Assembly: GCF_024498295.1 (NCBI RefSeq)
Contig: NZ_CP101827.1
Coordinates: forward strand, 1,058,001 to 1,122,000
From: Thermocaproicibacter melissae
GTDB lineage: Bacteria; Bacillota; Clostridia; Oscillospirales; Acutalibacteraceae
Reading direction: 5' to 3'
Length of the DNA stretch: 64,000 bases
In this document: one piece after another, positions 37,942-51,216 of the stretch
Layout: each line of letters opens with the position of its first letter
Numbering within the stretch: position 1 is the stretch's first letter
Notes under the pieces: model-generated
The model's database searches: none
Told to the model about the DNA's origin: nothing
Seen by the model: the letters and a program-made list of their open reading frames with translations, nothing else
Position numbers and translations under genes: made by a program

Positions 37942-38532
37942 TCAGCGCTCCCGTTTCAGCATCAGCAGTGCGGCAAGGTAACAGACGGCAAGCAACAGAG
38001 TAAAATTCCAGCCTGTTTGAATCAGAATAAAAAAGCCCGCTGTCGCCAAAGGGAGCAGCAGACTCAAAGAAACCGCGGTAACAATCCGATCCGCTTTTTC
38101 GGGCTCCGTTTTTATGCAGAGAAATGCGCGAAGGACCTGCCCGCCGTCCAGCGGGGCAATCGGCAGCGCGTTAAACGCAAACAGAACCAGATTGGCATAG
38201 AAATGGATGCTCTGCCTTGTTTGAGGAATGCAGAAAAGCAGCACAGCAGCCGCAAGATTCGCCGCAGGGCCGGCAAGCGACACCAAAGCGTCCCGCTTGT
38301 AGCTGCGCTGCTCGTTCTGCCTGACGATGTCGATGCCAAACGCAGTAAAGCGCATCTGCTCCGGCACATTTCCGAGCAGCTTCATGGCAAGAATGTGCGC
38401 CGCCTCATGCAGCACTCCGCTGAGAAGCCCGGCAAAGGCTATGCCGCTGCTGTCCAGTGCAAGCACCAGCGCCACCACAGCAAGGAACGGGACGCCTACC
38501 GTTACGCAGCACTTTCCGACTCGAAATGTCAT
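37942..38532 (-). CDS. M50 site-2 protease, SpoIVFB-like
   Basis: 196-residue intramembrane metalloprotease with about six helices. The zinc motif HEAAH is at 42-46 in the second helix and the NALPIAPLDGG motif at 121-131 supplies the third ligand, the same layout as SpoIVFB, which matures pro-sigma-K in Bacillus. Its ATG overlaps the stop of the upstream membrane-protein gene (ATGA), so the two are translationally coupled. The presence of coat-protein genes nearby makes a sporulation role plausible. A general regulated-proteolysis role is the alternative. Confidence 0.85.
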   Translation of the reverse strand: MTFRVGKCCVTVGVPFLAVVALVLALDSSGIAFAGLLSGVLHEAAHILAMKLLGNVPEQMRFTAFGIDIVRQNEQRSYKRDALVSLAGPAANLAAAVLLFCIPQTRQSIHFYANLVLFAFNALPIAPLDGGQVLRAFLCIKTEPEKADRIVTAVSLSLLLPLATAGFFILIQTGWNFTLLLAVCYLAALLMLKRER

Positions 38533-39065
38533 TCCGATGCTCCAGCGGAAGTTTGCGCCTGTGAAACACCGGACTGTGCACCGGTTTGCGAACCAGCCTG
38601 AGACGCACCGGACTGCGTACCGGCCGCCGAATCCGCCTGAGAAGCACTAGGCTGCGCACCCGCAGCCGAATTGCTGTTCTGCGCGGAACCGGTTCCAGCA
38701 ACGGAGGCCGCTGCTCCGCTTTCTGAACCGACGACGGTTTTCGGCCCCGCCGCCGAAATATTATTCCAGAGTTCGACTACGGTTCGTCTGGCCTGATCAA
38801 TCTGTTCGTCCGCAATGATGGTATCATTCACTGCCTGAACATACCACGCGCGCACGGTCTGAAAAAGTTCTCCGCCGAGCACGCGAAGGACAAGAGCCGC
38901 AACAAGGACGGCGATGCTTACCGAAATTTGGATGACGGTCAGCAGTTTGATTCCCCCGCGAGGCGCATTTTCAGGTTCATTTTCTTCTTCCGGTTCCTCG
39001 TCATAATCAAAGTCGGAGAGGTACTCCTCATTCAGGGATTCCTGATCCATATCGCGGTCCTGCAT
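38529..39065 (-). CDS. Unknown single-pass membrane protein coupled to the M50 protease
   Basis: 178 residues, not recognised. Very acidic N-terminus (about 8-33), one membrane helix (about 40-61), a short conserved-looking segment (WYVQAVNDTIIADEQIDQARRTVVELW, read as about 74-100) and a low-complexity Ser/Ala/Gln/Gly tail (about 115-178) built of imperfect GAxxSxSQA-type repeats. The start ATG at 39063-39065 has GGAGG upstream. Position and topology match SpoIVFA, the partner of SpoIVFB, but the SpoIVFA peptidase-like domain is missing. Role is inferred only from coupling. Confidence 0.7.
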   Translation of the reverse strand: MQDRDMDQESLNEEYLSDFDYDEEPEEENEPENAPRGGIKLLTVIQISVSIAVLVAALVLRVLGGELFQTVRAWYVQAVNDTIIADEQIDQARRTVVELWNNISAAGPKTVVGSESGAAASVAGTGSAQNSNSAAGAQPSASQADSAAGTQSGASQAGSQTGAQSGVSQAQTSAGASE

Positions 39066-39154
39066 AACATCTGCCTCCTGCGTTTCATTTTTCCGATGAA
39101 CATGCCTCTCTGAAAAGATATGTTCGTTGTCCGGAAAAGATAACAGGACAACAA

Positions 39155-39189
39155 AAAACACCGAAGAGCTTTAGGCCCTTCGGTGTTTT
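39155..39189 (-). terminator. Terminator of nfnAB
   Basis: 12-bp perfect stem (39155-39166 and 39178-39189), eleven-base loop, TTTTTTG exit on the minus strand. Confidence 0.88.
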
Positions 39190-48837: not shown

Positions 48838-51216
48838 ATGAATCTTTCCATGAAATGGCTGAAAGAATTTGTTCCGCTTGACGATATGCCGATCCGCACG
48901 TTTACGGAAGCAATCACCATGAGCGGGTCTAAGGTGGAAGGCTGGGAAAAGGAAGGCGAAGAGATTTCAAACGTAGTCGTTGGCAAAATTGTCTCTTTGG
49001 AACGCCACCCAAACTCTGACCACCTCTGGATTACCAAAACGGACGTCGGTTGCGGCGAGCCGCTTCAGATTATTACCGGTGCGCAAAACCTCAAGGTAGG
49101 CGACATTGTTCCGGTGGCCCTGCATAATTCCACGCTCCCCGGCGGAAAAAAGATTAAGAAGGGAAAACTCCGCGGCCTTGAGAGCAACGGGATGCTCTGC
49201 TCCCTCGGCGAGCTTGGCCTGACTAAGCACGATTTTCCCTATGCCATCGAGGACGGAATCTTTGTTCTGCAAGAAGACTGCTACCTTGGTCAGCCGATTT
49301 GCGAAGCGCTCGGCTTAAATGACACAAAGATTGAGTTTGAAATTACAAGTAACCGCCCTGACTGCTTCTCGGTCATCGGTCTTGCCCGCGAAGTTGCAGC
49401 GACGTTCCACAAGCCTTTGAATTTACACACACCGGTGGTAAAAGGCGGCCACGGTTCCTGCGCGGACCTTTTGAAGGTTCGTGTGGAAGCCCCCGACCTC
49501 TGCCCGATGTACTCCGCCCGCGTTGTAAAGAACGTGCGCGTGAAACCTTCTCCACGCTGGATGCGCGAACGCCTGCGCGCAATGGGAGTACGCCCCATTA
49601 ACAACATCGTTGACATCACGAACTATGTGATGTTGGAATACGGTCAGCCCATGCACTCCTTCGACTATTCGCTGCTCGCCGGCCATGAGATTCATGTGCG
49701 CCGCGCCAAAGATGGTGAGTGCATCCGGACACTCGACGGAACCGACCACAATCTGACCAGCAACAACCTTGTCATCGCCGACGCCGAAAAACCGGTGGCT
49801 GTTGCCGGCGTTATGGGCGGTGAAAACAGTGAAATCACTGACAGCACGACGACGATTGTGTTTGAATCCGCCTGCTTCAACGGTCCGTCCGTGCGCCGCA
49901 CGGCCCGCAGCCTCGGCATGAGGACGGATGCCTCCGCGCTCTATGAAAAGGGCCTTGACCCAAACAACTGTCTGCCCGCGCTTGACCGCGCCTGTGAATT
50001 GGTGGAGCTGCTGGACGCAGGCGATGTGACGGACGGCGTTGTAACCGATGTTCACTACACCCCCGAGCATCGCAGAATTCCGTTCGATGCAGACTGGATT
50101 AACCGTTTCCTCGACACGCATCTTTCCGCGGATGAGATGAAGGAAATTCTCGAAAAACTCGAATGTACCTTTGACGGCAATGACATCATTGTGCCGACCT
50201 TCCGTCCGGACCTCGTACACAAGGCGGATATTGCCGAGGAAATTGCACGTTTCTACGGCTATGACAAGATTCCCGCAACGCTCCTGAGCGGCGGTGCGCA
50301 GGGCAAATATACCCCGCGCCAGAAATTCGACAAAGCCTTAGGGGAAGCGATGATTTCGCTCGGTGCAAGCGAAATCATGACGTACTCGTTCATCAGCCCG
50401 AAATACTACGACAAAATTTGCCTGCCAGCCGACTCGCCGCTTCGCAAATCCATTACCATTCGCAACCCGCTCGGTGAGGACACTTCCATCATGCGCACCA
50501 CTGCCCTTCCGTCCATGTTGGAATCCCTTGCGAGAAACTACAACAACCGCAACGAATCCGCTTGCCTGTATGAACTTGCAACCGTTTATCTTCCCACGGA
50601 AGAAGATAAGTTGCCGGAAGAACTGCCGAAGCTCATCTGCGCCATGTACGGCGATGGCTACGACTTCTTCACCGCAAAGGGAATGGTGGAAGACCTGTTT
50701 GACCGCTTCGGCATCACCGACTGGGACATTGAAGCAACCTCAGAGGACCCGAGCTACCACCCGGGACGCTGCGCAAAGCTGAGCGTCGCAGGCGAAGACC
50801 TCGGCATCATCGGCGAACTGCACCCGAAGGTGATGGAAAACTACGGCATGGACTGCCGCGCCATCAGCTTCACGCTTGACGTCAACACCCTGTACCGCCA
50901 CGCACAGCTCGTGAAAACGTATGTTCCGCTGCCGAAATTCCCGGCGGTATCGCGTGACTTTGCACTGCTTTGCGATGACGAAACACCGGTGAGAACACTT
51001 GAGCAAGCAATCCGCGCGGGTGCCGGCAACCTTCTGGAGAAAGTCAAGCTGTTCGACGTTTACAAAGGGGAACAGATTGAAAGCGGCAAGAAAAGCGTTG
51101 CCTTCAGCGTTACGCTTCGCTCCAGCGACAGCACCCTCACCGAGGAACGCGTTTCCGGTGCAGTAAAGAAAATCATCCAGGAACTCGAGAAGGTCGGAGC
51201 CTCGCTACGCCTCTGA
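48838..51216 (+). CDS. pheT: Phenylalanyl-tRNA synthetase beta subunit
   Basis: 792 residues. Order of domains: B1/EMAP-like tRNA-binding region (about 40-155, GAQNLKVGDIVPVALHNSTLPGG), B3/B4 editing domain (about 210-385), B5, catalytic-like core (about 470-680) and the C-terminal ferredoxin-fold anticodon-binding domain (KFPAVSRDFALLCDDETPV onward). It completes the synthetase and edits mischarged Tyr-tRNA-Phe. GAGGAGGCGCGGATATT precedes ATG. Confidence 0.98.
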   Translation: MNLSMKWLKEFVPLDDMPIRTFTEAITMSGSKVEGWEKEGEEISNVVVGKIVSLERHPNSDHLWITKTDVGCGEPLQIITGAQNLKVGDIVPVALHNSTLPGGKKIKKGKLRGLESNGMLCSLGELGLTKHDFPYAIEDGIFVLQEDCYLGQPICEALGLNDTKIEFEITSNRPDCFSVIGLAREVAATFHKPLNLHTPVVKGGHGSCADLLKVRVEAPDLCPMYSARVVKNVRVKPSPRWMRERLRAMGVRPINNIVDITNYVMLEYGQPMHSFDYSLLAGHEIHVRRAKDGECIRTLDGTDHNLTSNNLVIADAEKPVAVAGVMGGENSEITDSTTTIVFESACFNGPSVRRTARSLGMRTDASALYEKGLDPNNCLPALDRACELVELLDAGDVTDGVVTDVHYTPEHRRIPFDADWINRFLDTHLSADEMKEILEKLECTFDGNDIIVPTFRPDLVHKADIAEEIARFYGYDKIPATLLSGGAQGKYTPRQKFDKALGEAMISLGASEIMTYSFISPKYYDKICLPADSPLRKSITIRNPLGEDTSIMRTTALPSMLESLARNYNNRNESACLYELATVYLPTEEDKLPEELPKLICAMYGDGYDFFTAKGMVEDLFDRFGITDWDIEATSEDPSYHPGRCAKLSVAGEDLGIIGELHPKVMENYGMDCRAISFTLDVNTLYRHAQLVKTYVPLPKFPAVSRDFALLCDDETPVRTLEQAIRAGAGNLLEKVKLFDVYKGEQIESGKKSVAFSVTLRSSDSTLTEERVSGAVKKIIQELEKVGASLRL

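Follow-up and report, generated by a model that had tools for sequence, protein, structure and literature searches.

SpoIVFB, a membrane enzyme, turns on the last program of spore formation, and in Bacillus subtilis the gene of its regulator adjoins the gene of this site-2 protease (S2P). How, then, is the protease controlled in those spore formers where no SpoIVFA can be recognised? PMC12632252 states this as an open question. The window examined here, 64,000 nucleotides of the Thermocaproicibacter melissae genome (contig NZ_CP101827.1), contains a SpoIVFB-like gene preceded by a small gene for a membrane protein, referred to below as the partner. My reading is that this genome, although no SpoIVFA is recognisable in it, possesses a SpoIVFA-type helix protein at the expected place, and that the missing LytM domain is the reason why this protein goes unrecognised. 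Throughout, "SpoIVFA-type" denotes homology to the clostridial LytM-bearing proteins found at the SpoIVFA position, and not to Bacillus SpoIVFA itself.

Table 1. Features of the gene pair and of its upstream region (positions in the window).
Feature	Position	Strand	Remarks
CBS-less SpoIVFB-type M50 intramembrane metalloprotease gene	37942..38532	minus	196 aa, HEAAH + LDGGQ
LytM-less SpoIVFA-type partner gene	38529..39065	minus	178 aa; ATG at 39065, preceded by AGGAGG; stop 38529-38531
ATGA, common to partner stop and protease start	38529..38532	minus	by sequence; 4-bp overlap
AGGAGG ribosome-binding site of partner gene	39074..39079	minus	by sequence
Mother-cell (sigma-E/K type) -10-like box CATATCTT	39115..39122	minus	in silico
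GTTAT -35-like element	near 39140-39144	minus	in silico

As the preliminary description had it, the start of the protease gene overlaps the stop of the partner gene (Table 1), and through this overlap the two are likely to be translationally coupled. All 10 genomes of the window's genus, its own included, contain the gene pair, which is therefore not a product of chance; the genes overlap by 4 bp in eight of these and are separated by 3 nt in the other two (one contig, that of L008, starts within the partner, and the protease of L015 contains an assembly gap of N).

That the second gene encodes a SpoIVFB-like protease, also claimed at the outset, is upheld by a Pfam match (PF02163, 50.3 bits against a cut-off of 27.2), by the motifs HEAAH (residues 42-46) and LDGGQ (residues 128-132) and by a structural model that matches SpoIVFB. 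In an alignment of 25 sequences H42, E43, H46, N121, P124, D129 and G131 are invariant and L128 and G130 nearly so. An NCBIfam search with the protease returned sub-threshold matches only. A first scan of the genome contigs with a single protein as query gave no match. Against the SpoIVFB structure 8vjl the protease scores an E value of 8.6e-6. The AlphaFold2 (AF2) model (pLDDT 89; Foldseek E 6.5e-7) aligns with B. subtilis SpoIVFB bound to pro-sigma-K (8vjm) at Z 15.4 and rmsd 3.7 over 190 residues, and with 8vjl at Z 13.0. The archaeal S2P MJ0392 (3b4r) matches equally well (Z 16.3; all three matches span 189-190 residues), so the predicted fold is not specific to SpoIVFB. The protein stops at residue 196 and aligns to residues 3-201 of the 288 of SpoIVFB, its end coinciding with that of the SpoIVFB membrane domain; the C-terminal CBS domain of Bacillus SpoIVFB is absent, and 24 aligned relatives end at about the same place. 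Because the CBS domain is absent I label the protease SpoIVFB-type, CBS-less, which is a known kind of enzyme and one whose cleavage of pro-sigma-K is predicted only.

The partner has the architecture first described for it, and its residue composition confirms one helix, an acidic head and a Ser/Ala/Gln/Gly tail. The head (residues 1-38) contains 16 acidic and 2 basic residues and is followed by a single hydrophobic helix at about 39-66 (hydrophobic segment mean 2.59), a conserved juxtamembrane segment (67-104) and a tail (105-178) that is 84% S/A/Q/G/T and ends in ASE. Pairwise identity is 0.51 in the helix, 0.49 in the juxtamembrane segment, 0.26 in the head and 0.24 in the tail, in an alignment for which the start codons of two rows (L107 and L109) were guessed; the tail also varies in length, from 24 to 75 residues. 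The AF2 model places helices at 38-62, 66-81 and 86-105 with low confidence (mean pLDDT 55). Searches of Pfam and NCBIfam with the partner gave no match at E <= 1; no LytM/M23 domain is matched by Pfam, and the reading frame ends within the linker. Lacking LytM, the partner is not a SpoIVFA in the strict sense; its tail occupies the position of the linker between helix and LytM in relatives and, judged by eye, resembles that linker in composition. The idea that the lost LytM survives as a gene of its own was rejected where partner and protease meet, since the two leave no room for one between them.

The relationship of the partner to LytM-bearing proteins was examined with a profile of the helix regions, with M23 removed, of 24 M23-bearing proteins, none of them from the window's genus. 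Among 4308 open reading frames (ORFs) of at least 60 codons, drawn from the window and from relatives' loci, this profile found the window partner at E 7e-10 and all 10 partners of the genus at 1.6e-4 or better, and the first unrelated ORF, a zinc-ribbon protein of L076, at 0.025. A reciprocal profile of the genus partners recovered the M23-bearing protein of L090 at 6.9e-8 and those of L025, L024, L082 and L021 at 9e-5 or better. Since the profiles match in both directions, I regard the partner as the N-terminal part of a SpoIVFA-type protein, and not as an unrelated recruit. The LytM proteins that occupy the spoIVFA position in clostridia have themselves been described as a non-orthologous displacement of SpoIVFA (Galperin 2012, PMC3533761), and the partner resembles them in its slot upstream of spoIVFB and in its homologous helix region; it differs from them in that LytM/M23 is missing here, whereas the M23 of relatives keeps its zinc motifs. 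The proposal of a non-homologous substitute for SpoIVFA thus stands in one half, as the spoIVFA slot is indeed filled, and falls in the other, given the homology to relatives' proteins; and what had been called a novel partner is better seen as a shortened relative of a SpoIVFA-type protein, without LytM.

How widespread is this form? An M50 match was found in 54 of 60 genomes, including the window's own, and the M50 neighbourhoods of 51 were studied, leaving aside two contig-edge fragments (G010, G023) and one match at E 3.4e-4 (G050). At 25 of the 51 loci the gene upstream of the M50 gene bears M23 (Pfam confirms all 25) and encodes a helix, a linker, often Ser/Ala-rich, and then M23; exceptions are L018, known from its M23 end alone, and L021, frameshifted within M23. 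The upstream gene encodes a helix and no M23 at 24 of the 51, namely all 10 loci of the window's genus together with L014, L017, L019, L020, L028, L030, L031, L033, L076, L077, L083, L084, L089 and L094. A check of five of these short partners against Pfam gave no match. Seventeen of the 24 match the M23-free profile at 1.6e-4 or better and L089 does so at 0.018, and L031, L076, L077, L083, L084 and L094 are assigned by position and helix alone; the partners of L030 and L076 are separated from the M50 gene by 154 and 158 nt. At two of the 51 loci, L081 and L096, a partner upstream of the M50 gene was not found. Both of their genomes (G045 and G030, respectively) also lack a BofA match. Of 13 named loci also considered, 10 duplicate genomes of this set; L114 and L118 (Amazonia massiliensis) are additional and have the M23-less form, and L119 was dropped as not SpoIVFB-like. 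The closest named relative of the window is L107 (the same as G001), "Ruminococcaceae bacterium HV4-5-B5C", and L112 is G034, Caproiciproducens faecalis.

A tree of 53 M50 proteins (25 labelled M23, 26 short and 2 unlabelled) requires the M23/short label to change 8 times, 3 of these changes being forced by well-supported branches; without the 7 short rows that lack sequence-supported homology it requires 3 changes, 2 of them forced. The tree is limited by the shortness of the protein, by numerous long branches and four suspect joins, and by a bootstrap that had not settled. The genus and L014, L114 and L118 form a single clade of 13 (support 100/98). The M50 tree gives no direction to these changes; loss of LytM on more than one occasion would be the simpler reading, as the M23 form is spread across both halves of the tree. 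In the 24 M23-bearing proteins scanned, H-x3-D is intact in every case and HxH in 23, the exception being the frameshifted L021; L023 and L027 were judged from their sequences, the motif pattern having caught another site. Both motifs are kept in L016, L022-L027, L029, L032, L034, L078-L080, L082, L085-L088, L090-L093 and L095. The LytM of SpoIVFA is described as likely inactive in PMC3533761, whereas the LytM domains of these clostridia retain both zinc motifs. The frameshift of L021 lies at about 1200-1473 in a single-contig genome (G016), where Pfam covers positions 2-55 of 96 of M23, and may represent either ongoing decay or a sequencing error.

The window's own genome (G000; 1.96 Mb, 99.97% complete) encodes a SigK (TIGR02846, 301.8 bits against a cut-off of 298.65) with a hydrophobic N-terminal extension before SFPRPL, and thus a pro-sigma-K. 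It also encodes BofA (60.5 bits; VVNLTG, SPLT and GIPG), in which a Ser stands at the position aligned by eye to BofA Asn61, and SpoIVB, followed by a gene that I take by eye to be Spo0A-like, as well as SpoIVA, SpoIIIAH, two SASPs, SpoIIP and one S41 protease. Given these genes and others that, by eye, are presumably SigE-, SigG- and SpoIIGA-like, the organism is likely a spore former. I also looked for a distinct SpoIVFA/SpoIVFB pair elsewhere in the genome, which the preliminary description had held would speak against its reading, and none was found. Three M50 genes match PF02163. One of the other two (C1:771840-772820) lies between what appear by eye to be dxr- and ispG-like genes and is presumably of the RseP type, the other (C1:548153-548851) adjoins genes that I take to be scpA/scpB, and a search around both with the SpoIVFA-type profile found no ORF; a second pair was rejected on these grounds. 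None of the five M23 genes of the genome is near an M50 gene; one of them (C1:1348595-1349398) resembles SpoIIQ, judging by eye.

When would the operon be expressed? Mother-cell -10 boxes are given as CATA-type, CATATTAT, in PMC3789822, and a box of this kind precedes the operon (Table 1). A CATAY lies within 150 nt upstream of the partner start at 10 of 10 loci of the genus plus L014 (shuffles 2.2 +- 1.2), where inspection of the genus alignment by eye had drawn attention to it before the count, and at 22 of 33 other loci (shuffles 6.8 +- 2.2, maximum 14 in 300 shuffles); the count covers 43 of the 51 loci, 8 being omitted, with partner starts chosen by script. The strict pattern ATA-N13..17-CATAY occurred at 0 of the 10 genus-group loci and at 5 of the 33 others, so that the -35 element is not established, and a better-fitting -35 pattern was picked after viewing the alignment. 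The operon would be expressed in the mother cell, probably under sigma-E, although its predicted -10 box also fits sigma-K. An inverted repeat (GTTGTCC/GGACAAC, window ~39130-39157) overlaps the promoter region; the nearest relative, L006, lacks this repeat, which is probably due to chance.

Taken together, I consider it probable that the operon provides the SpoIVFB arm of the sigma-K checkpoint, with a LytM-less regulator that would restrain SpoIVFB together with BofA until trimming of its tail releases the protease. I infer the topology, binding, inhibition, trimming and timing of this system as follows. During sporulation, partner and SpoIVFB would be produced together in the mother cell, probably under sigma-E; the helix and juxtamembrane segment of the partner, with BofA, would keep SpoIVFB from the pro-sequence of sigma-K, the partner anchoring both BofA and SpoIVFB; and forespore-derived SpoIVB, the single S41/CtpB-like protease, or both would trim the exposed, disordered tail and so release SpoIVFB. 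As reported for B. subtilis in PMC3808539, SpoIVFA consists of an N-terminal domain, a helix (73-90), a linker and LytM (160-255); SpoIVB cleaves it at 154 and sheds LytM, CtpB then removes the linker (131-154), and it is this loss of the linker after LytM shedding that triggers sigma-K maturation. The SpoIVFA helix is said to pack against the C-terminal region of BofA (PMC12632252), and SpoIVFA residues 96-109 are a predicted SpoIVFB contact (PMC9042235). The conserved helix and juxtamembrane segment are the part that contacts BofA, and is predicted to contact SpoIVFB, in B. subtilis, which supports the regulator reading. The locus thus resembles the SpoIVFB/SpoIVFA/BofA system of B. subtilis in that a regulator gene adjoins the S2P gene, in the membrane fold of the protease and in the presence of BofA, SpoIVB, S41 and pro-sigma-K in the genome; it differs in that the regulator has no LytM and the protease no CBS domain.

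Other readings of the operon have to be weighed. Recruitment of an unrelated protein as a functional substitute for SpoIVFA, the view first taken, would fit the lack of Pfam and NCBIfam matches and of M23, and the low-complexity tail; but a profile made from the M23-free N-termini of other genera matches the partner, the reverse profile agrees, and the partner occupies the same operon slot, often with the same overlap, and I hold this origin to be highly improbable. It is also conceivable, if unlikely, that the partner is a decaying vestige, with SpoIVFB held by BofA alone or unheld and the small gene serving as a translation leader for the protease. The missing LytM, the variable tail, upstream ORFs as short as 65-105 codons in several genera and the presence of BofA in the genome would all accord with decay. 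The frame of the partner is nevertheless open in 10 of 10 genus genomes (in one it is cut by the contig end), conservation of its helix and juxtamembrane segment is roughly double that of its head and tail, and the short form has been maintained across the clade of 13.

Finally, the protease might act outside sporulation, for example in anti-sigma or signal-peptide cleavage, with the partner as its private membrane protein. M50 proteins are versatile and this one has no CBS domain. Its window neighbours, named by eye, are not sporulation genes either: upstream of the operon is what I take to be a gltA-like gene, downstream a solute-binding protein, and a presumably pfkB-like gene is also among them. 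Yet the genome also encodes pro-sigma-K and BofA, no other SpoIVFB-type pair was found in it, and a mother-cell-type -10 box precedes the operon. Moreover, spoIVA, which is not near the M50 gene in the window's genome, lies within ~3.2 kb of it in eight relatives (G002, G004, G007, G032, G034, G036, G047 and G053), three of them in the genus, and a role outside sporulation seems very unlikely.

The checkpoint reading can be extended, more tentatively. Without a LytM cap the partner resembles the SpoIVB-cut intermediate of B. subtilis, and on a bolder reading the pathway would skip a protease step: the regulator might be encoded already "shed" in more than one clostridial lineage, so that a single step (S41/CtpB-like or SpoIVB) would free SpoIVFB. 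I regard this as possible but doubtful. Like 4FAproc, the SpoIVB-cleaved intermediate of SpoIVFA described in PMC3808539, the partner has a head, a helix, a free linker and no LytM cap; unlike 4FAproc, this state would be encoded and not made by SpoIVB, and the C-terminus is ASE, not the Pro-Ala of the CtpB substrate, which speaks against CtpB-type trimming. Against a skipped step, SpoIVB is retained in 22 of 23 short-partner genomes, and given this the SpoIVB step should not be taken as dispensable. Among the 25 genomes with an M23 partner, 20 have BofA, 23 SpoIVB and 21 S41; BofA is found in 18 and S41 in 16 of the 23 with a short partner (G041, with locus L033, is counted there as without a partner), and no clear link emerges between partner type and the presence of these three genes in the 25 and 23 genomes. 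The S41 search gave no match in G003, G004 and G007, three of the ten genus genomes (71-88% complete), nor in the short-partner genomes G025, G029 and G033 (99% complete) and G028 (59% complete); an S41 step cannot be general, because six short-partner genomes besides G028 have no S41 match.

If the regulator is indeed encoded in its shed form, these lineages would have dispensed with the folded LytM cap that protects SpoIVFA in B. subtilis before SpoIVB cuts, and the LytM-less partner suggests a simpler control switch for the SpoIVFB step. The partner also offers a naturally pared-down regulator for studying which portion of SpoIVFA is inhibitory and whether cleavage by SpoIVB is required. 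Of the two components, the protease being of a known kind, it is this LytM-less variant of a SpoIVFA-type regulator that appears to be new; the literature searched yielded no description of a LytM-less SpoIVFA.

A further observation concerns the sigK gene of two relatives. In G001, of the same genus as the window, it appears to be divided into an N-terminal and a C-terminal part that are colinear and separated by about 17 kb (minus strand, C17:155602-155985 and 138087-138455), and in G030 it likewise appears in two parts, about 34 kb apart (C11:15921-16262 and 50228-50578). Such a split sigK resembles that produced by the skin element of B. subtilis.
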